From a virus, in IMG/VR virus record IMGVR_UViG_3300028557_000015, positions 1 through 64,000 of that record: a DNA stretch of 64,000 nucleotides; one strand, 5' to 3'. Under the pieces are notes generated by a model. It worked only from the letters and a program-made list of their open reading frames with translations, did not search any database and was not told where the DNA came from. The position numbers and the translations under genes were made by a program. Of this stretch, positions 26,204 to 58,476 are shown piece by piece (the stretch's first letter is position 1; every line of letters starts with the position of its first letter).

Positions 26204-26300
26204 CTTTTATCATTCCCAAGAATCTAACTAAGGCAATAACAAAAAGCCAACATAAGCCCAATATAAGTATTGAAATTATAATATAGTCAAGCCAACTCAT
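26190..26300 (-). CDS. 36-residue single-pass membrane peptide
   Basis: A short frame beginning MSWLDYIIISILILGLCW and ending with a charged tail (MIKDVDD) encodes one transmembrane helix (about residues 5-29). It sits exactly between the VWA gene (stop/start TAATG) and the next gene (overlap), so the reading frame is unlikely to be random. Confidence 0.55.
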   Translation of the reverse strand: MSWLDYIIISILILGLCWLFVIALVRFLGMIKDVDD

Positions 26301-27571
26301 TATTTTTCATCATAGATAGCATACGTACCGAATGGGGGATTCGGATTCTTATCACCATGAATGATCCAAGTTGTATCACAATAGTCTGGGTCACCCCAAC
26401 TACCACAAGGGTATCCATCAGTGAATACAATCAATCGTTTTGGATCAATAGCATTCTCTTTCAAGTATGTAAAGATACAATCAAAGTCAGTTCCACCACC
26501 GCCCATTGGCTGATATTCTTCAATGCTTTCCATATTCTCACTAGAGAAATCTTGTGGGTTATATGTATCAGTATCAAAGCAGAATACGTGGACCTTGTAA
26601 CCATCAAACGCATCCATCATACCACCAATTTCACCTAAGAATTGTTGTGCTTGTTTGTTGCTGATACTACCTGACATATCGATTGATACGACAACATCAA
26701 TTTCTTCTCCCGGTGTCATGCCGGGCATGATAGCATCCATGTGCCAACCTCTGCGTGAGGGACGCATCCAACTGTAATCTGTACGAATAGCACTTGTCAA
26801 GTTAGTTTGAATCAGTTCACGCCAGGGCATAACTGGGTTAGTATGCTGACGGATCAATCGTTCGACACCTAAGGGCAACTGACCTGCTTCTGCACTACTT
26901 GCGGCATTGATAATAGCTTGTTTAACTTCCTGACGTACACGTTCACGTTCTTCGGGACTCATTGAGGGACGTTTACCTTTACCCTCTTTATCCCCATCAC
27001 CTTCGCCATCTCCGTCACCATCCATATGGTCATCAATCATTTGATCCAGCAAATCTTCAATAGAAATTTTCTGAACATTTTTTATCAAATCATCATAGAT
27101 AGCTTCTGCGGCTTTACCATCATATTTTGATTCATATAAGCAAGGCACTGATGTAATAAACTGGCCAACTTTGTGACGTTTCAAATCTGCATTGACAGCA
27201 TAGTCATCAGCAATATTCCAGATTTCAGGATCACGATTATCACGGCGACCCATATGATCGTACACCACGTGCAATACTTCGTGACCAACTAAAAATTCAA
27301 CTTCTTTCGGCTTCAACATCATAATGAAGCGACTATTGTAATAAAACTTCTGACCATCAGTTGCCGCAGTACTACACCATAGATCGGCATTGATAAGTTG
27401 CATACGTGTAGCAAGATTGCCAAAGAATGAATGACGTAATAGTAAACCAATACGTGCGGTGACTAACCTTTCACGTGCTAATGCATCAATTTTGCTATCT
27501 GTAGGTCCTACTAGATTTTCAAATTTCTTACTACGACTACGTTTTTTAGTGGGATTAAGTACTTCGCTCAT
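26300..27571 (-). CDS. VWA protein with HExxH metallopeptidase-like domain
   Basis: A 423-residue protein in two parts. The N-terminal region has HEVLH (97-101), as in DUF2201-type putative metallopeptidase domains. After an acidic low-complexity linker (DGDGDGEGDGDK) the C-terminal VWA domain carries the MIDAS motif DMSGS (298-302). Such proteins are encoded next to MoxR-type AAA+ ATPases and are thought to form chaperone or chelatase-like complexes; here the MoxR gene is the next upstream. It is transcribed from the promoter at 27598-27626. The substrate is not known. Confidence 0.85.
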   Translation of the reverse strand: MSEVLNPTKKRSRSKKFENLVGPTDSKIDALARERLVTARIGLLLRHSFFGNLATRMQLINADLWCSTAATDGQKFYYNSRFIMMLKPKEVEFLVGHEVLHVVYDHMGRRDNRDPEIWNIADDYAVNADLKRHKVGQFITSVPCLYESKYDGKAAEAIYDDLIKNVQKISIEDLLDQMIDDHMDGDGDGEGDGDKEGKGKRPSMSPEERERVRQEVKQAIINAASSAEAGQLPLGVERLIRQHTNPVMPWRELIQTNLTSAIRTDYSWMRPSRRGWHMDAIMPGMTPGEEIDVVVSIDMSGSISNKQAQQFLGEIGGMMDAFDGYKVHVFCFDTDTYNPQDFSSENMESIEEYQPMGGGGTDFDCIFTYLKENAIDPKRLIVFTDGYPCGSWGDPDYCDTTWIIHGDKNPNPPFGTYAIYDEK

Positions 27572-27597
27572 ATTGGTCCTTTACTGTTTATGTGTCT

Positions 27598-27626
27598 ATT
27601 ATAGCAGAATTTCTATTTATTGTCAA
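27598..27626 (-). promoter_or_regulatory. sigma70-like promoter of the VWA gene
   Basis: TTGACA (27621-27626) and TATAAT (27598-27603), 17 bases apart, with the TTGACAATAAAT core, 27 bases upstream of the VWA start. Confidence 0.75.
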
Positions 27627-27775
27627 ATAGACAAGCCTCGATATCCTGCATCAAATGCAATACGTGCGTAATCCTGTGCGGACTCAATAGCATACAAGGC
27701 CATTCCTTGGTCCTTTGTCATTCCTTTTGACCGGGCACTTTGCCCCAATGCGTAAAAATATTTCTTACCTGACAT
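27623..27775 (-). CDS. 50-residue unknown protein
   Basis: A short frame (MSGKKYFYALGQSARSKG at its start) fills the gap between the MoxR terminator and the VWA promoter. It is basic at the N terminus and its stop lies inside the -35 of the promoter at 27598. Coding-like composition and the lack of alternative content support it; the ribosome site is weak. Confidence 0.45.
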   Translation of the reverse strand: MSGKKYFYALGQSARSKGMTKDQGMALYAIESAQDYARIAFDAGYRGLSI

Positions 27776-27784
27776 TATATTTCT

Positions 27785-27813
27785 TTAAAAAAGGGTGAGC
27801 ATTACACTCACCC
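27785..27813 (-). terminator. Rho-independent terminator after the MoxR gene
   Basis: GGGTGAG and CTCACCC form a seven-base-pair stem followed on the minus strand by six T residues, right after the MoxR stop at 27820. Confidence 0.85.
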
Positions 27814-27819
27814 ATTAAA

Positions 27820-28920
27820 TCACTCACCAGCTTGCACAATGTACTTGCCGTATTTCTTATGAAACTCATCAAAGTTTTTCAATTGACTTGGCTCAATCGG
27901 CAACTTGTATGTTTTCAATGCAATCTTCGCACCCATTACAACCAACTCAGTCTCAAAGTTTGCCATAATGTAGTTAAAGAAGTTATCAGCCATTTCGTGG
28001 AACTTCTTACTGTCCACTTTCTTATTCTCAAGTGCATCACGCAATTCATAGCACATTGAAATAGTCAATGAATACATTGCCGAGATTTCTTTAACTGCAA
28101 GGTCCTTCACTTTGCCTGACAAAATATCTGAGGGCTCGGGCATACGACCTGCAACTTTGCGGTGTGCCGCAAACTTAACAGCAAGACCTTCACCAACAGC
28201 TCCACTAATCAAATTGAACAATGTATCGGCATCAGTGTCATCCTCATCATTCAACAAGTCACTAACGAAACACCAGCTACGTGGAGTAGCGAATGCACGG
28301 CTTGATGATTTACTATCAAACTCATACAGGTCCTGTTTAGCGAATGATAGATAACCTACAACGTCTTTGTGAATAGCTTTATTCACAGCCCAAGTCTGCC
28401 AAGCAGTAAAATCGGCTCGCATTTCTAAGTGTAAGAAACGATTAGCAAGGGGCATCGGCATACGATATGTAACACCTTTGTCAGAGTCACGATTACCTGC
28501 CGCAACAATAACAACGTTATCGGGCAAGACATACTTACCTACACGACGGTTAAGAATCAACTGATAGCCTGCAGCCTGTACTGCGGGACTTGCTGAATTC
28601 ATTTCATCTAAGAATAGAACAACAATCGGGTATTGACTTGCTAATTCATCATCGGGCAAATCAACTGGTGCCGCCCAATCCATCTTATTGATATCACGAT
28701 TGAAGTATGGAATACCACGAATATCTGTAGGCTCCATTTGTGCCATACGCAAGTCAATCATATGACCGCCTAGTTCTGCCGTAACTTCTGCTACAACTTC
28801 ACTCTTGCCAATACCGGGCGGACCCCATAAGAATAAGGGACGTTTTGCCTTGAAAGCTTTAAGAATAGCTTTGCGGGCTTGAACTGACGTAATCGTCAGA
28901 TTATCTGATACTGATGCCAT
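27820..28920 (-). CDS. MoxR-like AAA+ ATPase
   Basis: A 366-residue AAA+ ATPase with Walker A GPPGIGKS (33-40) and Walker B VLFLDEMN (101-108). The sensor 1 AAGNRDS and an arginine-rich segment (MPMPLANRF) follow. MoxR proteins act as ATP-driven remodelling factors with a partner VWA protein, and such a partner follows on the same strand at 26300-27571. It has two tandem promoters and a strong terminator, so it is its own transcription unit. Confidence 0.88.
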   Translation of the reverse strand: MASVSDNLTITSVQARKAILKAFKAKRPLFLWGPPGIGKSEVVAEVTAELGGHMIDLRMAQMEPTDIRGIPYFNRDINKMDWAAPVDLPDDELASQYPIVVLFLDEMNSASPAVQAAGYQLILNRRVGKYVLPDNVVIVAAGNRDSDKGVTYRMPMPLANRFLHLEMRADFTAWQTWAVNKAIHKDVVGYLSFAKQDLYEFDSKSSSRAFATPRSWCFVSDLLNDEDDTDADTLFNLISGAVGEGLAVKFAAHRKVAGRMPEPSDILSGKVKDLAVKEISAMYSLTISMCYELRDALENKKVDSKKFHEMADNFFNYIMANFETELVVMGAKIALKTYKLPIEPSQLKNFDEFHKKYGKYIVQAGE

Positions 28921-30819: not shown

Positions 30820-30842
30820 AATGCGTGATTTTTTCACGCATT
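30820..30842. repeat. Nine-base inverted repeat in the divergent spacer
   Basis: AATGCGTGA (30820-30828) and TCACGCATT (30834-30842) flank a T-rich five-base loop between two divergent genes. Each gene has its own late box, and the repeat abuts the one at 30843. It could be an operator or an RNA hairpin. Without a T run after it, termination is unlikely. Confidence 0.4.
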
Positions 30843-30850
30843 GATAAATA
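30843..30850 (+). promoter_or_regulatory. T4-like late promoter box for the GIY-YIG gene
   Basis: GATAAATA is followed by a leader with a perfect AAAGGAG ribosome site before ATG 30868. Confidence 0.65.
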
Positions 30851-30867
30851 ATAGAAAGGAGAAGTAT

Positions 30868-31356
30868 ATGGGTTTTATTTATATTTGGAGAGACAAAATA
30901 CGCAAAATGTATTACGTGGGTTCGCACGACGGGTCTCCTAATGACGGATACATTTCATCCTCACATTGGTTAACAAGTGAAGTTAGATATAGACCACACG
31001 ATTTTAAAAGACGCATTATAAAAATGATTGAAGTAACTGATATGAAAACTGAAGAATATCGCCTATTGAATATGATTAAAGAAGATGAGTTTGGTAAAAA
31101 ATATTATAACTTAAAGCACGGCAAACCACGTGGCTCAGCACCGTGGAACAAAGGTAAAGTTAATATATACTCTGATGCAACTCTATCTAAAATGTCAGCC
31201 GCAAGAGTAGGAAAACCAACAACTAAAGGTAAGGCAAATCCACAGGCTATTATTAATGGCAAAAAAGGAGCAAGTAAGTTATCATCTACTGTTACTGGTA
31301 GGAGAAAGAAAGTATTACCTGACGGATCATGGACTTGGGAATATCCAAACAAATAG
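30868..31356 (+). CDS. GIY-YIG homing endonuclease-like protein
   Basis: A 162-residue protein. The N-terminal FIYIWRDKIRKMYYVGSHDG is a GIY-YIG nuclease motif pair, and RRIIKMIE and EYRLLN follow as in the catalytic domain. The C-terminal part has SAPWNKGK, the NUMOD3-type DNA-binding element. I start at ATG 30868 because of the strong ribosome site; the frame reads back to a TTG at 30841. It lies against the tmRNA gene, whose terminator it shares, so it may home near this RNA gene. It is one of three plus-strand genes in the window. Confidence 0.82.
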   Translation: MGFIYIWRDKIRKMYYVGSHDGSPNDGYISSSHWLTSEVRYRPHDFKRRIIKMIEVTDMKTEEYRLLNMIKEDEFGKKYYNLKHGKPRGSAPWNKGKVNIYSDATLSKMSAARVGKPTTKGKANPQAIINGKKGASKLSSTVTGRRKKVLPDGSWTWEYPNK

Positions 31357-31380
31357 GAGCCGAAGCTCCTATTGTGGTTT
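31355..31380. terminator. Bidirectional terminator between endonuclease and tmRNA genes
   Basis: AGGAGC and GCTCCT form a six-base-pair stem with a CGAA loop on the plus strand, followed by a T run for the endonuclease transcript. On the minus strand it reads GGAGC-TTCG-GCTCC, a stable UUCG hairpin followed by ATTTGTTT, and would end the tmRNA transcript. Confidence 0.8.
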
Positions 31381-31621
31381 TTTATTTAATACAGTAAGTC
31401 CTACTGCACCTTAACCTCACGCGGCTAAAGAATAAACGCTATCGTTTGCATTTATGGTTTTTGCTTCTTCGACCGGGTCACCCCAATCCTAACGGCTTCT
31501 GCTTTGCCGAGCTGTCCACTCTGTTACTCTTTGCCCAATCGATCCTGTGTCATCCCCACCTAAATACACAACATACACTTAGGTGGAGATGGCCGGCACT
31601 GCCCCGGCGTCTTGAACTTAT
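31380..31621 (-). ncRNA. ssrA: Circularly permuted (two-piece) tmRNA gene
   Basis: Reading the minus strand, the acceptor piece comes first. It has a T arm with five base pairs and a seven-base loop (31592-31608), then CATCTCC (31585-31591), then discriminator A and CC. A spacer of about 24 bases (31558-31581) follows, extending the acceptor stem as a hairpin. The coding piece comes next and opens with GGGGATGACACAGGAT (from 31557). GGGGATG pairs with CATCTCC to give a seven-base-pair acceptor stem with G-U at the third pair, the alanine identity element. Downstream lie a GGGTGACCC pseudoknot-type hairpin and the tag frame (31417-31449). The order acceptor, spacer, coding is the permuted arrangement, in which the spacer is removed to give two RNAs. 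tmRNA rescues stalled ribosomes. The sequence encodes CCT where CCA is needed, so CCA addition is required. Confidence 0.93.
31417..31449 (-). other. tmRNA proteolysis tag frame (ANDSVYSLAA)
   Basis: Ten sense codons, GCA through GCG, encode ANDSVYSLAA followed by TGA. The resume codon is alanine and the end is LAA, as in bacterial SsrA tags recognised by ClpXP. The tag is inside the coding piece of the permuted tmRNA. Confidence 0.9.
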
Positions 31622-31648
31622 TTTACATCGTTTCATACAGCAATAACT

Positions 31649-34600
31649 TCAATTGTATTTAGTATTAAAATACTCTTGTAACCAAGGCCAATCATAACTT
31701 AAACGTAATTTGTCTAACTCACCGTTGACTGATTCATAGTATTCTACAGCATGTTGAGCACCTTCGCAACTATATTGGGCAAAGTCTCCTTCACCGATAT
31801 TTAACCATGCTTCAAGTCTATCTTTACTTGCTTGGCTATCATCGGCTCTTAACTTCAATGCTTCTCTAAAACTAGTACGCCATGTACTCCAAGCATCAGT
31901 ATTATATATTGCTACACCACTATTTAACTCTACAACTTCGTGTTCATTGTCAAGTGTGAAGTCAAGCCCCGTTCCACTGTTAGCAAGTGTAATCTTCTTA
32001 TTATAAGCAATCATAGCTTGGTGACCATACTCTAATCCATTAACAGGGTTTGTAGCGTGAAAGATATAATGCTTAGGTACTTGTAGCCTATCAGGTTGCC
32101 ATGAGAAATCAAATTTATTGTTGACTTTTAATTTAGCAAATACAGTAAACATCCACGGTGTTTCACTTGCTTTCGCTGCCGCATGATACGCCTGTACACG
32201 ACCGTTAACACCATCAACTCTAACAACTCTATTATTTAATCCCTTAGTCACTTTTAGTAAGTGTTCGTAGTTCTCGTCAGCACCGGTTTCACCGTTACTT
32301 AGGAAGACTATATCCAGCGGTTGAGATTTAGCTAGAGACTTACTACGACTGATGTATGGATAATCATACAACTCATTCTCTATATAATCTTTTGCTTCTT
32401 TAGGAACAATTATTCGTGTTGCACCTGTACTCGTAATCAGTATGTTCTTAGTGTCCGGTGTCCACAAACTAATAGGTTCACTATCAAGTACATCTAATCC
32501 TTTGTTATCTTCCGTGACAAACGTAGCATAAGGCCAATCAAAATCAGTATGAATATTAGTGACATGTGTATCTTCTTTCGTAATAATAATAGGGGCGGGT
32601 AAGCGTTTTACTCTTTGATGTTGATTGTAGTTGACCTTTTCATAGTCTTCCATCATAATCATGTCATCAATCAATGACTTAAATTTGTTTACATCAATTA
32701 AAAATGTGTCTCCAAATTTCTGTTTATCGCTAGGAAACACATGTAATTGCTCCCTAGCATATGGATCGCATATATAACTAAAATCAAAATTTTCATAGTC
32801 ACATATACTTGAACATATCCAAAGATAGTGTTCTTTTCTAGTGTCTAATTTCTTTAATATCTCTTTGAATGTTTTTAGGTAGCTATGCTTATAGTCAACC
32901 GTAATTGTAGATTTATTACCAATCTTAGATTTGATAACTTCATTTACATTTGACTTGTTTCCATGATTAATTAATATCACATCATACAATGAGCCTTCTG
33001 CTTTGGCTCTCTTATCTTTAACAAAATTAAGCATACTTAAATGTTCTATGATTTTAACATATTTGGTATCTTCGTTAAATGTGTTCTTGTTTACAAGGTA
33101 TGTATTACCCCAATGAGTCCACTGACTACCAAACACATGAATCATTCGTTTTTGCCACGGGTTAGGGTTATAGTCAAAGTTAAACTCAGTATAGTCTAAT
33201 TCACTAGACAATACCCAAAATAGTTCAGTTGTGCTTTTTGACGTACAGCGTGAAATAGTTTCCACCCATGAATTTAAATATCTAGTTTTCTGAATAGATG
33301 GAAATTGTAATTTTAATTTTTCAAATCTATAACTGCTTTCACTGTTGCCCTTATCAACAAAGAACATATCACGGTGAATTATCTTTTGAATAACTTCATC
33401 GGTTATTTCTACAACAACGTTTTCTCTTATAGATTCATCATAATCTAATGTGATTGTTGACTTAAAGTCTGGTACAATATAAACAGGTCCGTCTGTTCCC
33501 CATTCATATCGTGCAGGATCTTTGTTAGGATTAGGTCTCCATGAAAAATCAAATGCTTTCAAGTCTAATTCATTACGAACTAACCAGTTAGTCATATTCA
33601 CTTTGGGAGTAGCAATGATAGAGTCTAAGAATTTGTATTCAGTTGCACCTTCAACACGATACATCACAGTAGGTTCTGTCTCAGCATCATTCCACTTGTT
33701 ACCAAACACATAAATGAAGGGTGGCTCTAATGGGTCGGGTCTCCAACTAAAATCAAACTTAGAAATAGACAACAGTATTTCCCACTGAGGTTCTTTCTCA
33801 GTAGATTTTACCATAGCAACATTATCTTCTATATACTTGTATTCAGTTGCCCCTGGCACAATATAAGATACTGTGGGTTCGATGAAGCAGTTGTTCCATT
33901 GATTGCCCCATACGTATATGTACGGTGGGCTATCAGGGTGTGGTCTCCAGCTATAGTCAAAACTATCTACTGGTATTAATGTTTCCCAGTTTTCTACAGT
34001 AGGTGCAACATTAGCAGACACATCATTAATATATTTCTTTTGTGTTGCGCCAGGTACAGTATAGATAACAGTAGGTTCAGTAACAGCATCGAACCATTGA
34101 TTACCAAACACATAAATGAATGGTTCTTCTGTAGTATCAGGGTGCCAACTATAATCAAAATCTTTTACAGGAATTAATGTTTCCCAGTTATCTTTGTTTG
34201 ATAATGCTTTTGCCTTTGTCACATTAACATATTGTATGTCGCTATCTTCTGTACATCCTACTGCATAGAATCTAGGTCCACCTGTTCGTTGCCATTGAGT
34301 ACCAAATTGATATATCAACGGTGCATGGTCTATATCAGGATGCCAACTAAAATCAAAATCAGTTGTATCAATTCCTTCAGGTATTGTCCAATGCATCTTA
34401 TCTTGTTTAGCTGTTGCTATCTGTGCATCGATATATTTTATCTCTGTTGCGCCCGGGGCAACATACCTAGGTCCTCCGGTGCGTGTCCATTGGTCGGGAA
34501 ATTGATAGATGAATGGTTCTTCCGTCGAATCAGGATGCCAACTAAAATCAAATTTAGATTGGTCTATATTTTTAGGTACTTGCCAATTTTCAAATTCTGT

Positions 34601-35722
34601 ACAAACAACTTCTGCTTTTAATGTATCAATATATTTTATATCCGTTGCGCCTGGCACTACATATCTTGGTCCACCTGTTTTTTGCCATTGTGTTCCAAAT
34701 TGATATATGAATGGAGGATCATATTTTGATAAGTCTGGTTCCCAACTAAAATCAAATTTATTCTGGAACATGTTAGTAGGTATGATCCAGTTATCCATGC
34801 ATGGATTACGCTTGACACGTTCTTCCATGTACTTGTATTCTGTGGCACCTTCTACTTTACGTATGACACTAATTTTGAATTCAGGTTTATTCCATTGATT
34901 ACCCCAAGCATAGATGTATGGTGGCGCAGTTGGATCAGGTACCCATGTCATATCAAATGAAGTTGGATCTATATCTTCAAGTGCTTCAAAGTCTGCGGGT
35001 CTAGCTGCCAACTTAGGCGCAATATTCTCAATAAACTTACGTTCAGTTGCACCTTCTACATGGTACTCTATAGTTGGCATCACACTTGCTGGGTATTGAC
35101 TGTTACCAAATACATAAATGTAGGGAGGTGCAGTTGGATCCGGTCTCCACGTATAATCAAAATTTGCCGGCTCGTATATAATATTAAACAAACGAGGCAT
35201 TGATAATAATGTAGCTAAGGTATCTGTTATGTATTTTTTATCCGTAGCACCCGGTACATGGTATTCAACCGTTGGCATGATAGTACCGGGATACCATTTA
35301 TTGCCCCATACATAAATATAGGGAGGGTCACTTGGATCTGGGTGCCATTTGAAATCAAATTTATCTTTTTCAATATATTCAATTATTTTCCAATTAGTTG
35401 TTACTTCTTCTTTGAGTGGGATAGGATCAACATCAGCACGATATATTGTTACCGCATCTGTGTTAGTTGAACAAAGCCAAGTTCCGCTGTCTTTCTGGTA
35501 AGGGCTTGGCCATACATTATTGTGTTCTTCAGCCCATACATCTTCGTCAGGAAGGAAATCAAAGTCCCAATCCCAATCAAAATCTTTATAATTGCAGTGT
35601 TCGTTGATTACCCAAAAGTGTTCAGTAGTGCATTGATGTTTGGCATCAGATAAATCTGTTGCAAATCTTTCTCTGGGGTGAACGTTGGGTTTTTCTCCGA
35701 AATAAAATACATCTCTTAGCAT
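31649..35722 (-). CDS. 1,357-residue Trp/Tyr-rich repeat protein with a GT-like C terminus
   Basis: A giant soluble protein. An N-terminal Trp/Asp-rich block (residues 35-75) is followed by about thirteen copies of a unit of roughly 65 residues. The clearest cores read FD[FY]SWxPD, PP[FY]IY, [FW]GNQW, then PGATEYKYI. Ten copies are strong (about residues 120-790) and three are divergent (later). The C-terminal 230 residues contain DIVFLSNGETG, AYHAAAKASETPWMFTVF and a further repeat, which matches the layout of a GT-A type glycosyltransferase-like domain and resembles the protein at 58476-59429. The repeats could be a substrate array or a binding scaffold. It lies at the end of the radical SAM operon and before the tmRNA. 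No signal peptide. Confidence 0.8.
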   Translation of the reverse strand: MLRDVFYFGEKPNVHPRERFATDLSDAKHQCTTEHFWVINEHCNYKDFDWDWDFDFLPDEDVWAEEHNNVWPSPYQKDSGTWLCSTNTDAVTIYRADVDPIPLKEEVTTNWKIIEYIEKDKFDFKWHPDPSDPPYIYVWGNKWYPGTIMPTVEYHVPGATDKKYITDTLATLLSMPRLFNIIYEPANFDYTWRPDPTAPPYIYVFGNSQYPASVMPTIEYHVEGATERKFIENIAPKLAARPADFEALEDIDPTSFDMTWVPDPTAPPYIYAWGNQWNKPEFKISVIRKVEGATEYKYMEERVKRNPCMDNWIIPTNMFQNKFDFSWEPDLSKYDPPFIYQFGTQWQKTGGPRYVVPGATDIKYIDTLKAEVVCTEFENWQVPKNIDQSKFDFSWHPDSTEEPFIYQFPDQWTRTGGPRYVAPGATEIKYIDAQIATAKQDKMHWTIPEGIDTTDFDFSWHPDIDHAPLIYQFGTQWQRTGGPRFYAVGCTEDSDIQYVNVTKAKALSNKDNWETLIPVKDFDYSWHPDTTEEPFIYVFGNQWFDAVTEPTVIYTVPGATQKKYINDVSANVAPTVENWETLIPVDSFDYSWRPHPDSPPYIYVWGNQWNNCFIEPTVSYIVPGATEYKYIEDNVAMVKSTEKEPQWEILLSISKFDFSWRPDPLEPPFIYVFGNKWNDAETEPTVMYRVEGATEYKFLDSIIATPKVNMTNWLVRNELDLKAFDFSWRPNPNKDPARYEWGTDGPVYIVPDFKSTITLDYDESIRENVVVEITDEVIQKIIHRDMFFVDKGNSESSYRFEKLKLQFPSIQKTRYLNSWVETISRCTSKSTTELFWVLSSELDYTEFNFDYNPNPWQKRMIHVFGSQWTHWGNTYLVNKNTFNEDTKYVKIIEHLSMLNFVKDKRAKAEGSLYDVILINHGNKSNVNEVIKSKIGNKSTITVDYKHSYLKTFKEILKKLDTRKEHYLWICSSICDYENFDFSYICDPYAREQLHVFPSDKQKFGDTFLIDVNKFKSLIDDMIMMEDYEKVNYNQHQRVKRLPAPIIITKEDTHVTNIHTDFDWPYATFVTEDNKGLDVLDSEPISLWTPDTKNILITSTGATRIIVPKEAKDYIENELYDYPYISRSKSLAKSQPLDIVFLSNGETGADENYEHLLKVTKGLNNRVVRVDGVNGRVQAYHAAAKASETPWMFTVFAKLKVNNKFDFSWQPDRLQVPKHYIFHATNPVNGLEYGHQAMIAYNKKITLANSGTGLDFTLDNEHEVVELNSGVAIYNTDAWSTWRTSFREALKLRADDSQASKDRLEAWLNIGEGDFAQYSCEGAQHAVEYYESVNGELDKLRLSYDWPWLQEYFNTKYN
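31656..31663 (-). promoter_or_regulatory. Probable T4-like late promoter for the tmRNA
   Basis: ACTAAATA on the minus strand, about 35 bases upstream of the acceptor piece, is identical to the terminase box. It overlaps the end of the large repeat gene. No convincing sigma70-like promoter was seen upstream of the RNA. Confidence 0.45.
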
Positions 35723-35732
35723 AGATACTTAC

Positions 35733-37217
35733 TTATGATATAACTTTTACATTATATAGTTTTTCAAATCTATCTGCGTCTTCCCTATTATTAACCATTG
35801 GTTCGCCTCTGATGTTCAATGATGTGTTTAATAACATAGGGCAACCTGTTAATATATACCATTTCTCTAACAGTTCTCTTATTCCAGTGCCATCCTTTGG
35901 CACAGTTTGTACACGACTAGTCCCGTCATGATGAACGATAGCAGGAAATAACTGAGGATGCCTGCAACGAGCGATGACTTGCATATACCTACTGTTACTG
36001 AAGCCACGAGGCATATCAAAGTACATATCAGCATACTCCTCCAGAATGACTGGAGCAAAGGGTCTAAACTTCTGTCTGCGTTTAATTTCATTTACTTTGT
36101 CCTTGATTTCATTTCCTCTTGGGTCTGCAAGTAAGCTTCTATTTCCCAAGGCCCTTGGCCCAAACTCTGCTCGTCCACTAGCGACTCCCACAATTTTGTC
36201 AGTAAGTAAACTATCAAGAATGCGATTAGTAGGATAAGGCCCACTAATATCATAACCGAGAAAAGCGTTAGTCCAGTTAACACGTTTACCATAACCAAGA
36301 CAGGCCGCTCCAAGACTAGAACCAGCATCGCCAGGATTAGGAATAATCCAAATGTTGTCATAATATTCTCCTAATAATCTATTTGCCGAACAGTTTAATG
36401 CTACACCGCCACCATATACTAAGTTTTTACTACCACCTAACATTTTTGCTTTTGATATGACTGATTTAATTAATATTTCTACTACATTTTGTGTTGAACT
36501 AGCAATATCCATTTCATTTTTATCAATTAAAAATTTATCAGGTATTCCTATGTGTAAATTTTCAGCGAAACGAATATCCTCTATGTCTGTAATTAATCCT
36601 GACATTATATCTGTGTGTTTAGGATTACCGTATGCAGCCATACCCATAAGAATATATTCTTCATCTAATGGACGTAAGCCTACGTGCTGTGTCATTGCTG
36701 AATAGAATAACCCAATACTATGTGGATACTTTTGTCCCCATAGTTTTTTGTATTGTGCTACACCGTTCTTATCATACCGTGCATTGTAAATACTAATAGT
36801 ATCAAACTCACCGATAGCGTCAATGACAACTACAGTAGCATCATCGTAGGGACTTGTTTGAAAACCTGCGGCTGCATGACTTAAGTGATGGTTATGCGTA
36901 TATACTTTACCGCCTTGCAATTTATCAATCAATTCTTGACCAATAATATTTTTAACAAACAAATTAGATAATGCAGGCTTTTCACCTGAACGAACTTGCC
37001 TTAGAAACTTCATCCAAGGACGTTCATAATAATGAATCTCAATATCACTTGATGTTGTATAAGATAGTGCATCTTTAACTATGTCATAGCATAAATCTTT
37101 TGTGTGCTTTTCTTTATTATAACGTTCGCTATGTCCGGCAAACAGTATGTTGCCATTATCATCTATAACAGTTAGTGCGGCATCATGAAAGCCACTAGAT
37201 ATACCTACATAGTTCAT
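35733..37217 (-). CDS. Carbamoyltransferase of the NodU/CmcH family
   Basis: A 494-residue enzyme with the family landmarks. The N-terminal GISSGFHDAALTVIDD comes first and NHHLSHAAAGF (about 109-119) provides the metal-binding histidines. VVVIDAIGEFD and GRAEFGPRALGNRSLLADPR, the nucleotide-binding part, are also present. These proteins make carbamoyl-adenylate from carbamoyl phosphate and ATP and transfer the carbamoyl group to a hydroxyl of a sugar or antibiotic. The acceptor in the phage is unknown. Both domains appear intact and the length is only slightly below typical family members. It overlaps the SGNH hydrolase gene downstream of the radical SAM genes. Confidence 0.92.
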   Translation of the reverse strand: MNYVGISSGFHDAALTVIDDNGNILFAGHSERYNKEKHTKDLCYDIVKDALSYTTSSDIEIHYYERPWMKFLRQVRSGEKPALSNLFVKNIIGQELIDKLQGGKVYTHNHHLSHAAAGFQTSPYDDATVVVIDAIGEFDTISIYNARYDKNGVAQYKKLWGQKYPHSIGLFYSAMTQHVGLRPLDEEYILMGMAAYGNPKHTDIMSGLITDIEDIRFAENLHIGIPDKFLIDKNEMDIASSTQNVVEILIKSVISKAKMLGGSKNLVYGGGVALNCSANRLLGEYYDNIWIIPNPGDAGSSLGAACLGYGKRVNWTNAFLGYDISGPYPTNRILDSLLTDKIVGVASGRAEFGPRALGNRSLLADPRGNEIKDKVNEIKRRQKFRPFAPVILEEYADMYFDMPRGFSNSRYMQVIARCRHPQLFPAIVHHDGTSRVQTVPKDGTGIRELLEKWYILTGCPMLLNTSLNIRGEPMVNNREDADRFEKLYNVKVIS

Positions 37218-53300: not shown

Positions 53301-53982
53301 AAACTACTTTACCCGGTACGTATGGATTTTCAAATCCATTAAATTGATTTACTATCTTTCCGTTAAAACTATCATCGTGTGTTAAAATATAACTGTAAGT
53401 TTGGTCAAAAATGTGTGAGTACAATTCTGGTTTATCATATAAGAAATAAGGACACATACAACTAAAGGTAATTTCCTTTGTTCTACATCTTGCCATGGTT
53501 GATATTAAATGCATAGCAAATGATTTGGCGCTAGGATATCCCACTCCTTCTGGATAATTTTCACGTTCATATTGAAATGACATTGTGGAACCCATATATA
53601 CTACTTTACTGCCGACAATTAAATTGTCATACAATGATGCAATAATTTGATGAGGAATAGTTACTGCTCTGTTTATTGTTTGAACATACTCAATAGGATT
53701 TGGTTCTTTAAATAGTTGATTTGCTAATCCTGGATAACCTGATCCATTTTGATTAAACAATATAATATCAATTACGGATAGTTCACTGGACAATTCTAAA
53801 CATTTACTTTTAACTTGTTTAGTATCACTATAGTTGATATATCTATCATCTATGTGATTAGTATTGTGATCCTTATATGAAAAATTTATTACACGATTAC
53901 CATCATCTCTGGCTTTTTTCACAAATTGATTTCCAAATTTATCAGGTGTTCCTCCACCCACTACTAAAATATTTTTACTCAT
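53287..53982 (-). CDS. Short-chain dehydrogenase-like protein
   Basis: A 231-residue protein starting MSKNILVVGGGTPDKFGNQF, a Rossmann-type nucleotide start. The rest has alternating strands and helices, with YMGSTMSFQYERENYPEG near residue 140 and a possible catalytic Tyr, but the usual YxxxK is not evident. It is inserted between two radical SAM genes with overlaps on both sides. It probably binds NAD(P) or a nucleotide sugar; an oxidoreductase or an inactive binding role are both possible. Confidence 0.55.
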   Translation of the reverse strand: MSKNILVVGGGTPDKFGNQFVKKARDDGNRVINFSYKDHNTNHIDDRYINYSDTKQVKSKCLELSSELSVIDIILFNQNGSGYPGLANQLFKEPNPIEYVQTINRAVTIPHQIIASLYDNLIVGSKVVYMGSTMSFQYERENYPEGVGYPSAKSFAMHLISTMARCRTKEITFSCMCPYFLYDKPELYSHIFDQTYSYILTHDDSFNGKIVNQFNGFENPYVPGKVVYAKQ

Positions 53983-55379
53983 TGTATGCTATCCCACCAT
54001 GTTAATAATTTAGGGTTTCGACTATATATGTTACGCATTGTGACTTTCTCATCACCTCGTATCTTTTCTAAGTGTTCAACCCAACGTTTGCCATTCAATC
54101 TTGCAGTTTTATACTTATCAGGCCATTCTTCTTCATGCGTTTTGCGGCTGTCTTTTAATGCCTGTAAATTGCCAATAAAACTACGTTGTTTCCAAGTAGC
54201 ACGTGATTCGCAATATAAAAGTATGTCATCTACCATTTCATTTAATATTTCACGTGGCCAACTAGTTGGACTCCACATAATATCTGGATGAAATGCAAAT
54301 GTAATCTTTGTAATAATTTCAACATCTAATTCAATGCTTAAATCAAACAACTCTTTTAACGAGAACATTCCGGGTGCGGTAATAGTCAAATCTAACTTCA
54401 TCTTGTCTTTACCACCGGGCAATGCTAAACCTTGTTTAAAATTTTCTAACCATTTGTCCCATTTGATTCCAGTACGGATGTATTCTACAATATCACCTGT
54501 ACCATCAATGCTAGCACACATCATCCAATCCTTGTAATGTGGTAGGTAGTCATATAAGTTTTTCTGACCAAATTGAACACGACTTAAATTACTATTATAG
54601 CGCATATAGCAATTCTTGGCAGAGCCATTTTTTAACATTTCTTCTAATGTCCACCAATGAACATCATACATCAATGGTTCGCCACCAACCCAATACATTT
54701 CTTCTACGATACCACGACTTACTGCATCACGAAATTCAGGTTCAACCACATTTTGTTGAAAGTCTTGCATTGCTGATTTAATTTCAGGAACCATAAAGGG
54801 TTGATTTTTAGGAGTCCACATATTATGAATCTTCTTTTCAGTTTCCCATGTTGAACTTAATTGTTCACCACACATGCGACACTTAAAATTACATAGATTA
54901 CTAAAACGATAATCAAAACTTATTGGCTCCATTGAAGTGAATCCAGTATCGTCTGTAGTATCAAATGCTTGTTGAATTTTATCTTTAAACAATACGCCAG
55001 TGAACCATCCACGATAGCTTTCACCCTCCATCAATAAGTTTTTATTGCACACATCACATTGAGGTATCTCTTCACCTCGCATTAGTTTTACACGAATATC
55101 TTTCATGTAGTCACTATTCCAGTGTTCTTTTAAACTTACTGGTTGGTAATCATCCAATGCAGTTTTACTTTCAGTTACAGCGCCATACTTTGAATCGTTA
55201 CTACTATCAATATATTGCTTTTGAAATGAATGTTCTTCTCTGCTAGCACAACACATCCTACGTTCGCTTTGTGGACTGATATAGGTATGTGTCCAGGGTG
55301 CCATACAAAATACTTTATTGGGGCTATCTGGATGCGGTTTAGCATCTGTTCCCCATATTGGCATTATTTTATTTGTCAT
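53979..55379 (-). CDS. N-terminal twitch radical SAM protein M
   Basis: A 466-residue protein. Core C163-x3-C167-x2-C170 (CNFKCRMC); N-terminal C25-x17-C43 with C44 (MCC) and C108-x2-C111. It has a longer N terminus and a longer spacer between the two N-terminal pairs (63 residues against about 40 in most others). The radical SAM core is otherwise standard. The substrate is unknown. Confidence 0.9.
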   Translation of the reverse strand: MTNKIMPIWGTDAKPHPDSPNKVFCMAPWTHTYISPQSERRMCCASREEHSFQKQYIDSSNDSKYGAVTESKTALDDYQPVSLKEHWNSDYMKDIRVKLMRGEEIPQCDVCNKNLLMEGESYRGWFTGVLFKDKIQQAFDTTDDTGFTSMEPISFDYRFSNLCNFKCRMCGEQLSSTWETEKKIHNMWTPKNQPFMVPEIKSAMQDFQQNVVEPEFRDAVSRGIVEEMYWVGGEPLMYDVHWWTLEEMLKNGSAKNCYMRYNSNLSRVQFGQKNLYDYLPHYKDWMMCASIDGTGDIVEYIRTGIKWDKWLENFKQGLALPGGKDKMKLDLTITAPGMFSLKELFDLSIELDVEIITKITFAFHPDIMWSPTSWPREILNEMVDDILLYCESRATWKQRSFIGNLQALKDSRKTHEEEWPDKYKTARLNGKRWVEHLEKIRGDEKVTMRNIYSRNPKLLTWWDSIQ

Positions 55380-56902
55380 TGTAAATCTGGATTAACAAAC
55401 ACATCTTTACTTGGATCTTCAGGCGGATGATCCGGTATTAAATCAACACCTTGACGATAATTTTGTGTGTTAATTTCCTCTGCAGTGGGCAACTCTGTTT
55501 GAATACTATCATAGAAAGCAACAAACTCTGGCGGGAATGTTGCACGGAAGTTCTTACCACGACGGACATCATACTGAGCATAGAACTGTTTAAAGTCTCT
55601 ACGATTCTGTTCAATGTCTTTAACATTCTTATGAGGAGTCTTAATAACGTCAAGGTAATCAATCAATCGTTGAGTCTGTTCACGTTCAATGCTCATAAGC
55701 ATTTGTTTACCATCACTTGTACGGAAATCCATAGCAATCTGATTATCTAACCATACTTGCAATTGGTCTTTATACTTCTGACGAATCTCTGTTGGCAACA
55801 TAGCACAAGATTGGAAGCTAGGGAAGCGCAAGATGTTCAAGCTCATCGTAGGATAAACTGTGTTATGAATCTTTTTGAATTCCATCATCTGATCCATGAA
55901 CTGAACAATACTAGACAAACATAAGCTATTGATAGTCATCATCATGTGTGTCTTTTTGATGTTACCTTCAGTGTGCAATCTACCTAAGTTATGAATCCAT
56001 TTGTTCCAATCAAAGCCATCACGTATATATTCAGCGTGAGAACCAAATGCTTCACAGCTTGTATAGACTTCCATGTAGGGGACAAAGTGACTATACTCAA
56101 TTAACTTGTCCATAATATCATCTTTGGGAACTAAGTTACTATTGATAGCATAACGTAATACTTTACCATCTGGACGATTTGTGGCACGTTCTTGATTATT
56201 ACGGAACCATTCAAAAAGCTTCCATACACCAGGAGCCATAAGTGGTTCACCACCTGTAATTCGAATTTCTTCTAAGTTGTCAGCAAGTCCTTCTTCCCAC
56301 CAACGCCAGAACGCTTGAATGTATGGGTTAATGTCATCTGGTAATGGCTTAGCATGGTCAGCTTCATTAATAAAGTGACTACGTGCATCACCGTCGATAT
56401 TACGATAAGGACCAAACTTGTGAATATCTTTAACCCATGTTGTGCTGAAACTTGGATTGCAATAACTACAGGCAAAGTTACATGTACGGTCAAAAGAAAT
56501 CTCTAATGTTTTCAACATTGTATTCTCTTGCCAATCAGCTTTAGCAGTTTTAAGAATGTCTGATTCTTCAAATACAGCAGTTTTGTAAACACGGTCACTC
56601 ATGTTATCACGACCAATATCTTCAATCTTCCAACAGTATTCACACTCTTGTGGGCGTTTACCTTCTTGCATCAACTTACGCATATACTTCTTATGTGGAG
56701 TATTGTGAATTGCTGATGGATTAGTGAGTAACTCTGCCGCATCAATTTGATGCCCCAATGGGTGGTGACAACTAGTTGTTTGTCCGTTACCCAACCATAT
56801 TGTAGCGTTTAGCCACTTAGCGGCACAATAGCTATCGCTAATAGGGTCAATAAGTCTTGCTTTGTATTGTGCGAATGATTCTTCGTGTTTCTTGCCTGCC
56901 AT
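55376..56902 (-). CDS. N-terminal twitch radical SAM protein N
   Basis: A 508-residue protein. Core C141-x3-C145-x2-C148 (CNFACSYC); N-terminal C26-x18-C45 (CHHP, type 2) and C87-x2-C90. The C terminus carries an extra Asp/Pro/Glu-rich tail of about 40 residues (LIPDHPPEDPSK), unlike most others. It overlaps protein M by ATGA. Together with O it has the longest N-terminal twitch-type regions. Confidence 0.9.
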   Translation of the reverse strand: MAGKKHEESFAQYKARLIDPISDSYCAAKWLNATIWLGNGQTTSCHHPLGHQIDAAELLTNPSAIHNTPHKKYMRKLMQEGKRPQECEYCWKIEDIGRDNMSDRVYKTAVFEESDILKTAKADWQENTMLKTLEISFDRTCNFACSYCNPSFSTTWVKDIHKFGPYRNIDGDARSHFINEADHAKPLPDDINPYIQAFWRWWEEGLADNLEEIRITGGEPLMAPGVWKLFEWFRNNQERATNRPDGKVLRYAINSNLVPKDDIMDKLIEYSHFVPYMEVYTSCEAFGSHAEYIRDGFDWNKWIHNLGRLHTEGNIKKTHMMMTINSLCLSSIVQFMDQMMEFKKIHNTVYPTMSLNILRFPSFQSCAMLPTEIRQKYKDQLQVWLDNQIAMDFRTSDGKQMLMSIEREQTQRLIDYLDVIKTPHKNVKDIEQNRRDFKQFYAQYDVRRGKNFRATFPPEFVAFYDSIQTELPTAEEINTQNYRQGVDLIPDHPPEDPSKDVFVNPDLQ

Positions 56903-56910
56903 TTTATTCC

Positions 56911-58476
56911 TTAATGTTTAGTGTGCGCTTTGATACATTCTCTCCAGTAACTCTTTAGTTCTGGAAATGTTTCTATAAAATTCGTTTGCCTGCGTCTATC
57001 ATATTCTGTGATGAACAGGTAGAAGTTCTTTTTATTTAGTAGTAATTGATCCTGGGGTAGAGATTCTTTCATTATAGCAAGGTCTCGCTTGATTTTCAAT
57101 AGCTCATATGGTTTAAAGCCTTCGAATGTTTCCAAATAGTCGTCACCTTGTACATTATCTTCCATGTACTTTAAGCAACGTTCTACTTCATCGATACCAT
57201 ATTGTCCTGCATTTTGAATACTGAACCAGGGAGGGTATCTTAGTATTGGAATATCAAAGAATACACGTTGATATTTCTTCTGGGTATAAACTTTGTGTAC
57301 AATGTCGTTCTCTTTTTCTACCTCAGTTTGTTCGGGTGCAATTTCAAATTCAACTTGACTTCTTCCACCAAACTCTGCTCTTAACTCTAGTACCATCTCC
57401 AAGAACTTATGTAAGCTAGGAATGGACATGATATTAAATGTATTGATAAAGCTAACAGTACTGTACTTTGTCTCACGCAAGAAGGTTCTAACGTTATCCA
57501 ACATGCGTTCAAACTCTAACCCAGTACGCATATATTCTGCTTGCTCGCCAAACCCATCAAGTGATACAAACAACCAAAAGTGTTTAAATCCTTTATCTAC
57601 GTACCAGTTATTACCACTATGTACGTTGAAGTTTTCTTTATCCTCGTATGTGCGTAGTTCTTCTAATGCTTTAACTTTCTCGACAAACTTGTCAAATAAC
57701 TTTTGATCCGGAGGACACATGTTACTTGTTATAGATAACTCAAGTTGACCATGTGGATTCTCATTCACATAGTCTAAGACTTTGAAAGTGTTCTTATCCA
57801 TAAGTGGCTCACCACCTGTCATTCTGAACACACGTAGTTTACGATAGATTTCAGGGAACCATTGCCAAAATGCTTCAACATAAGGATTGTCTTTATTAGA
57901 CACTTTGAGTGGCATCATTCCTTTTTGTTCTAATGCTTCTAAGTTATTATGTGTCATTCCGGTTAATTGATAACCACCGTGCTTCTTAACTTCTTCTTCC
58001 CAACTACTGGAAAGATGTGGACTACAATACATACATTTAAAGTTACATGCTTGATTGAAATTGACTTCTATATATCGAGGGACAACATCATAGTCAAACT
58101 TGTTTTCAGTGACTTCTTCAAATGTAGGTGCATTCCACCATTCACTACTGCGATAATGTCTGTCACTCATATGACCTTTGGGATCATCACTTTTAGCATC
58201 TTCTACTTTCCAACAATAGCTACAACCTTCAGGACGTTTACCCTCAAGCATTTGTTTACGTTCGTGTATTTTGGTAGGAGTATTGTGTAGTACACTGGGC
58301 TTATCTTTCAATAACTCCAATGGTATCTTGTGGGTGGGTGGGTGATAACAACTTTGAGTCAATCCACTAGGCAAGTGAATAGATACTTGTTGCCATTTAG
58401 CAAGACATAGTGATGGACTGACCGCATTTAAGCGGTCACGCATGTCTCTAGCAAACTGGTCGTACTCACCGCTCAT
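56911..58476 (-). CDS. N-terminal twitch radical SAM protein O
   Basis: A 521-residue protein, the first radical SAM gene of the operon. Core C144-x3-C148-x2-C151 (CNFKCMYC); N-terminal C24-x18-C43 (CYHP, type 2) and C85-x2-C88. The extra length is a long mid-region (about 250-310) between the GGEPL loop and the C-terminal part. It meets the glycosyltransferase-like gene at TAATG. No substrate is known. Confidence 0.9.
   Translation of the reverse strand: MSGEYDQFARDMRDRLNAVSPSLCLAKWQQVSIHLPSGLTQSCYHPPTHKIPLELLKDKPSVLHNTPTKIHERKQMLEGKRPEGCSYCWKVEDAKSDDPKGHMSDRHYRSSEWWNAPTFEEVTENKFDYDVVPRYIEVNFNQACNFKCMYCSPHLSSSWEEEVKKHGGYQLTGMTHNNLEALEQKGMMPLKVSNKDNPYVEAFWQWFPEIYRKLRVFRMTGGEPLMDKNTFKVLDYVNENPHGQLELSITSNMCPPDQKLFDKFVEKVKALEELRTYEDKENFNVHSGNNWYVDKGFKHFWLFVSLDGFGEQAEYMRTGLEFERMLDNVRTFLRETKYSTVSFINTFNIMSIPSLHKFLEMVLELRAEFGGRSQVEFEIAPEQTEVEKENDIVHKVYTQKKYQRVFFDIPILRYPPWFSIQNAGQYGIDEVERCLKYMEDNVQGDDYLETFEGFKPYELLKIKRDLAIMKESLPQDQLLLNKKNFYLFITEYDRRRQTNFIETFPELKSYWRECIKAHTKH

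Follow-up and report, generated by a model that had tools for sequence, protein, structure and literature searches.

A putative two-piece tmRNA encoded in permuted order by a jumbo phage, with a CCU-bearing spacer hairpin and a recombinant make-up suggested by sequence comparison

tmRNA is an RNA that releases stalled ribosomes and marks incomplete proteins for destruction. A gene for such an RNA in permuted form was predicted on the minus strand of a viral DNA stretch of 64,000 nucleotides (the window), and the question raised by this locus is whether a phage carries a genuine two-piece tmRNA here and what, if anything, is new about it. The window is part of record G000, itself a fragment of 116,205 bp. 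The covariance search of Rfam models (cmscan) that the original prediction had called for gave a strong match to the permuted model RF04321 (tmRNA_permuted), which was matched over its full length at 31417-31642 on the minus strand (111.3 bits, E 7.1e-21; curated cut-off 47 bits). The alphaproteobacterial model RF01849 (alpha_tmRNA) was also above its cut-off (64 bits against 50, positions 40-271 of 355). A match to RF01850 (beta_tmRNA, cut-off 84) was absent for the window at the gathering threshold, with overlapping clan matches reduced to the best, and the one-piece model RF00023 had no match across the record. The predicted order of acceptor half, spacer and tag half can be read directly on the minus strand. 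The predicted interval, 31380-31621, lies at the right locus and errs in extent, being some 20 nt too short at the 5' side. The features of the gene are as follows.

31417-31642, minus strand: permuted tmRNA gene (extent of the RF04321 match; 5' side possibly to about 31651)
31612-31617, minus strand: GUUCAA, the strand that the first piece contributes to the long-range helix below the tRNA-like domain, pairing with 31533-31538
31592-31608, minus strand: T arm GCCGG-GGCAGTG-CCGGC with an alpha-type loop, read from the sequence
31585-31591, minus strand: 3' strand of the acceptor stem (CATCTCC), pairing with 31551-31557 and including G3-U70
31581-31584, minus strand: discriminator A73 followed by CCU in place of CCA, read from the sequence and the same in 84/84 loci of the class
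31558-31584, minus strand: spacer hairpin ACCUAAGUGUAU-GUU-GUGUAUUUAGGU, 27 nt, perfectly paired, lengthening the acceptor helix by 12 pairs
31551-31557, minus strand: 5' strand of the acceptor stem (GGGGATG), with RNase P cleavage expected before 31557
31533-31538, minus strand: UUGGGC, the strand that the second piece contributes to this long-range helix, which shows compensatory changes among 67 relatives
31494-31509, minus strand: hairpin CGGC/GCCG at the PK1 position of the RF04321 alignment
31471-31488, minus strand: hairpin GATTGGG-GTGA-CCCGGTC with a GNRA loop, recurring in relatives
31417-31449, minus strand: tag frame ANDSVYSLAA and stop codon TGA, from the sequence and codon-position statistics

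The tRNA-like domain is complete, with a 7-bp acceptor stem, G3-U70, a T arm and a reduced D arm. As predicted, the third of the seven acceptor pairs (GGGGATG, 31557..31551, against CATCTCC, 31591..31585) is G-U. A G-U third acceptor pair is the identity element for alanine. Among 67 relatives of less than 93% identity the acceptor stem is kept and both the T stem and the long-range helix show compensatory changes; in the T arm, four aligned stem pairs are kept with covariation in 67/67. The fold is more stable than that of 200 shuffles (z -3.2), and a chance origin is excluded by this value together with the Rfam E-value and the helices kept in relatives. Ahead of the tag, no PK1 pseudoknot pairing could be demonstrated; two hairpins are found there, one of which (GATTGGG-GTGA-CCCGGTC) is conserved with varied pairs, occurring in 68 of the 99 tmRNAs that bear the flanking motif (3.5% in shuffles). 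ARAGORN missed the gene, and its score of 111 bits compares with mostly 115-176 for bacterial permuted tmRNAs, as might be expected of a decaying remnant of a host-derived bacterial tmRNA. With all tRNA-like helices and the tag intact, compensatory changes among relatives and the same class present in 84 distinct viral loci, such decay is very improbable, and the gene is in all likelihood a genuine permuted two-piece tmRNA of a jumbo phage that would work with host factors. The missing CCA was considered as the cause of the ARAGORN miss and rejected: ARAGORN detects the CCU-encoding bacterial gene L701 and misses the CCA-encoding phage gene L241. No nucleotide relatives of the gene were found in isolate phages or plasmids.

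The predicted tag ANDSVYSLAA stands in frame at 31449..31417, closes with a hydrophobic degron and is followed by a stop codon. Among 143 ten-residue phage tags the mean entropies at the three codon positions are 0.50, 0.44 and 1.15, the third positions varying most. The tag ANDSQFALAA occurs in 14 different codings, all three stop codons are used among phage tags, and the ending LAA is found in 142/175 of them. The parser sought the resume motif GCNAAYGAN, and the first three tag residues were thus set by the search. Selection of this kind suggests that the tag is translated. Long tags of 26-29 aa occur at L389, L492, L494, L502 and L044, one of which resembles a duplicated tag (ANDNAFDFTAMSFTGNTVANDSKFALAA).

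Permuted tmRNA had been described in the original prediction as unusual in a phage, a view that the following counts refute. Two-piece tmRNA has been described in Melnitz and other marine phages, a 2021 tally of public phage genomes, reported in 2022, having reached 53 (PMC9004378), and passages of the 2025 tmRNA database paper, the source of the RF04321 model, give 79 phage tmRNAs of all forms (PMC11915505). Seven isolate phages (Marzo, Rb1, QDWS359, X1, QDWS595, XacN1 and Phosso) were found to carry a permuted tmRNA above the cut-off, as was a Bohxovirus record from a clinical sample. From pattern scans and parsing in Python, 233 distinct permuted tmRNA genes were collected, nearly all on viral contigs; they form a non-random set, the parser having required exact acceptor pairing except in the CCU cassette set described below. 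Published counts of phage tmRNAs are probably low, because ARAGORN misses several such genes. The two-piece tmRNA of phages is thus an established kind, of which the window gene alone is no surprise; it is a real member, and very probably a functional one. Like those of Melnitz and the pelagimyophages (PMC9004378), it is a phage-encoded permuted tmRNA akin to alphaproteobacterial ones; it differs from them in belonging to a jumbo-phage clade, in its CCU spacer hairpin and recombinant structure, and in that no riboswitch was matched in the window. With the tmRNAs of Stenotrophomonas phage Marzo, Sinorhizobium phage Phosso, Xanthomonas phages XacN1, Rb1 and X1 and Alcaligenes phage QDWS595 it shares the permuted order, G3-U70 and an RF04321 score above the cut-off, whereas these phages encode ACCA and have spacers of 61-414 nt in which no spacer-filling ORF was seen. 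Within this kind the window gene stands apart by its CCU hairpin cassette and its recombinant make-up. In Stenotrophomonas phage vB_Sm_QDWS359 (L788:1493-2071) the annotation places a hypothetical protein on the antisense strand of the permuted tmRNA, probably in error, and the annotations of Phosso (PV764938, 349596-350198) and XacN1 hold no feature at the tmRNA.

The T loop GGCAGTG, thought aberrant at first, is nothing of the kind: the RF01849 consensus is GGCgGUA, and this type is near-universal among the alphaproteobacterial controls and occurs in 68 of the 233 phage tmRNAs. The alpha-type T loop is accompanied by its own D-loop type in 65/68 cases, against 0/165 of the other tmRNAs (p ~1e-54); both loops therefore change together. 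The window gene resembles alphaproteobacterial tmRNA (RF01849) in its T loop, its D loop (AGGATCGA) and its 64-bit score; unlike it, most alphaproteobacterial genes have an encoded CCA, and in many the spacer forms no long helix. Nearly all of the alphaproteobacterial controls encode ACCA, one Microvirga copy having ACCT. Microvirga genomes G157 and G167 hold additional permuted tmRNAs (L722, L723 and L726) with a canonical T loop and 95-nt spacers beside the normal alpha gene; these extra copies are perhaps located on mobile elements.

The spacer was correctly predicted to extend the stem, its hairpin adding 12 pairs to the acceptor helix; its length of 27 nt is counted from A73 to U-1. A pattern made from the spacer alone (CACCTAAGTRTATN{0,10}RTATTTAGGTG) matched 107 viral contigs, with 0 matches in 84,980 prokaryote species. 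All 84 distinct cassette loci proved to be permuted tmRNAs with G3-U70 and CCU, and all seven acceptor pairs are present in each of the 83 loci not cut by a contig end. Five acceptor stems occur among them (GGGGATG, GGGGGTG, GGGGCAT, GGGCCTG and GGGGGAG), and this pairing is independent evidence because the search pattern contained no acceptor stem. The spacer stem itself is near-invariant in sequence, partly since the search pattern left little of it free to vary. The cassette is found with both types of T loop (22 alpha, 57 canonical). Absence of an encoded CCA was considered as a phage-only oddity and dropped, since it is normal in the betaproteobacterial genes used as a bacterial control: in three of the four, ACCC or ACCT is encoded and the helix continues through the spacer. 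According to the figure 1 legend of the tmRNA database paper, an encoded CCA is no requirement for tmRNA (PMC11915505). The window gene thus resembles betaproteobacterial tmRNA (RF01850) in not encoding CCA and in an acceptor helix extended via the spacer (in Dechloromonas, for example, ACCTAAGCCC..GGCTTAGGT); unlike that class, it is not reported by RF01850 at the cut-off, and its exact hairpin is absent from prokaryote genomes. The cassette thus follows a betaproteobacterial design and the tRNA-like loops an alphaproteobacterial one, and the exact hairpin has been seen in viruses only. A Dechloromonas agitata record (G153) holds two permuted matches, L701 and L724, about 150 bp apart on opposite strands (158.8 and 98.6 bits).

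The CCU lies inside a perfectly paired helix, and this could impede both RNase P and the processing of the 3' end. An RNA without CCA and closed by such a hairpin might stay uncut and uncharged, bind SmpB and inhibit host trans-translation, a role that has been proposed for the tmRNA-like RNA of mycobacteriophage DS6A; an RNA of the DS6A type inhibits tmRNA (PMC4131195). A decoy of this sort is unlikely, given that the tag frame, stop codon and degron are under selection across many phages, that G3-U70 is retained in all loci and that betaproteobacterial tmRNAs share both the absence of an encoded CCA and the extended helix. A tmRNA working in trans-translation is the reading followed here.

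Comparison with other phage tmRNAs bears on the origin of the gene. Ahead of the acceptor strand, 75 nt agree with L495, another cassette tmRNA, at every position, whereas similarity in the tag part is only 64%. The reverse is seen with L020, from a phage with a 96% identical terminase: the tag part and beyond are 98% identical and the acceptor side 65% alike, and the L020 spacer has 386 nt and bears an ORF. What the window and L020 have in common is the tag end together with the endonuclease gene downstream (protein 87% identical); the acceptor end is not shared. On this comparison, the window tmRNA is a recombinant of two lineages, with its acceptor side from one and its tag end from the other, which is new evidence that phage tmRNAs swap modules (acceptor side, spacer and tag side). 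The neighbouring features are as follows.

30841-31356, plus strand: homing endonuclease gene (phrog_314; PHROGs 5.8e-10), convergent with the tmRNA gene
31352-31373, no strand assigned: hairpin lying between the 3' end of the tmRNA and the convergent endonuclease gene and shared by both, resembling a terminator on the plus strand
31649-35722, minus strand: upstream gene of 1357 aa, with no PHROGs or Pfam match

A homologue of the endonuclease lies in the same convergent place by the tmRNA in ten loci (the window and nine others), which makes endonuclease-driven exchange a plausible, if unproven, cause of the recombinant structure. The same ten loci and the clear recombinant structure would also fit a tmRNA gene that profits the phage little and is kept mainly as a place for the adjoining endonuclease to home or drive exchange. 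In most of the 233 loci no such neighbour is seen (a count limited by short flanks), and selection acts on structure and tag just as it does in working tmRNAs, so that this selfish role is considered quite unlikely. Four relatives of the 1357-aa upstream gene were found, three of which have a tmRNA downstream in the same locus, and no conspicuous promoter-like site lies immediately upstream of the tmRNA gene; co-transcription of the two genes is likely. Elsewhere in the window, 35733-37217 is a carbamoyltransferase, a DUF2201 metallopeptidase/VWA-like gene adjoins a MoxR-like AAA ATPase gene (26300-28920), and three adjacent genes with weak radical SAM matches (53979-58476) lie in a run of large minus-strand genes.

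The predicted phage origin is confirmed by the terminase large subunit gene in the window and by contigs of its clade, close terminase relatives (83-98% identity, among 80 kept) being found on contigs of up to 524 kb. The nearest isolate terminases, about 49-50% identical, are those of PA5oct-like Pseudomonas phages and of Sinorhizobium phage Phosso (469 kb). By terminase relationship, the window gene belongs to a jumbo-phage clade. Eight of 49 records reached via the terminase or the upstream gene have an RF04321 match above the cut-off in a genome-wide search; two further loci (L245 and L246/L247) exceed it when scanned whole, and G019 gives weaker paired hits. ARAGORN found no tRNA genes within the 64-kb window, despite the tmRNA. 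SmpB was absent from record G000 and from 35 large related records, and a CCA-adding enzyme from 29 records, all of them possibly fragments. Because the phage records examined lack both, the host would supply them; SmpB may lie elsewhere in this phage genome, the contig being a 116-kb fragment.

The anatomy of the gene, its conservation and covariation, the selection on the tag and the recombinant origin are observed in the sequences compared. Expression and use of the RNA would take the following course. The gene would be transcribed jointly with the upstream gene and the transcript would fold as one hairpin, the acceptor helix continuing through the spacer. RNase P would cleave before G31557 and a 3' nuclease would release the acceptor piece, whose 3' end would have to be repaired by the host CCA-adding enzyme because the gene encodes CCU. 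Alanyl-tRNA synthetase would charge the acceptor piece via G3-U70. With host SmpB and EF-Tu, the tmRNA would then enter stalled ribosomes and append ANDSVYSLAA, and the tagged product would be cleared by host proteases of the ClpXP type. The presumed benefit to the phage is that ribosomes are kept free during mRNA cutting in infection. Rescue of ribosomes on late mRNAs and tagging of host proteins, both raised in the original prediction, are possible roles, and tagging of host proteins by a phage tmRNA has already been proposed (PMC9004378).

The most surprising result is located in relatives of the window gene and not in the window. The CCA-encoding class comprises 152 distinct spacers, and in 53 of them an ORF takes up at least 70% of the length. 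Core shuffles, 50 in number, gave 11.3 such spacers on average and never more than 19, and the opposite strand gave 5. Where spacers are at least 130 nt long, 34/43 hold a filling ORF in sense and 1 in antisense. An AAGG-type (Shine-Dalgarno-like) site starts 5 nt past A73 in 22 of the 38 ORFs of at least 30 aa, and in 32/53 the stop codon is the UGA of the conserved leader UGAU directly ahead of G1. Spacers filled by ORFs, which reach 124 aa, include L234, L258, L382, L020, L303, L431, L235, L266, L297, L359, L360, L016 and others. The cargo differs between spacers, since the 38 ORFs form 27 sequence clusters; two ORFs are above the Pfam cut-off (DUF2061, 3.7e-21; CxxCxxCC, 1e-5). dN/dS-like ratios are 0.18-0.27 in the best homologous pairs (L234/L258/L382, L266/L297 and L292/L389) and reach 0.6 in divergent pairs. 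Judged by these ratios, the spacer ORFs are under purifying selection. The 414-nt spacer of Phosso has no ORF filling it.

In most CCA-class genes the acceptor helix continues past a constant C74-A mismatch into the spacer, and the ribosome site would therefore pair with the 3' end of the ORF. tmRNA processing would free a short mRNA whose ribosome site had previously been held in the acceptor helix, and from this arrangement we infer control of the nested gene by tmRNA processing. That the spacer in relatives is a gene slot for unrelated small genes, with expression tied to tmRNA maturation, and that the window has its closed form, a 27-nt hairpin, is a proposal to which we give an even chance. 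Passages of the tmRNA database paper report a tRNA gene in one intervening sequence and a repetitive element in another, and make no mention of a protein gene in such a sequence (PMC11915505); full-text literature searches, in which subscription journals are thinly covered, returned no prior report of protein genes in tmRNA spacers. If confirmed, this would be a stable RNA gene that encloses, and maybe controls, an mRNA, and would allow a direct test of why phages carry a ribosome-rescue RNA. The spacer at L241:1570-1660 seems to hold two tRNA T-arm-like pieces, TGGTTCAATTCCACT and AGGTTCGAATCCTCA.
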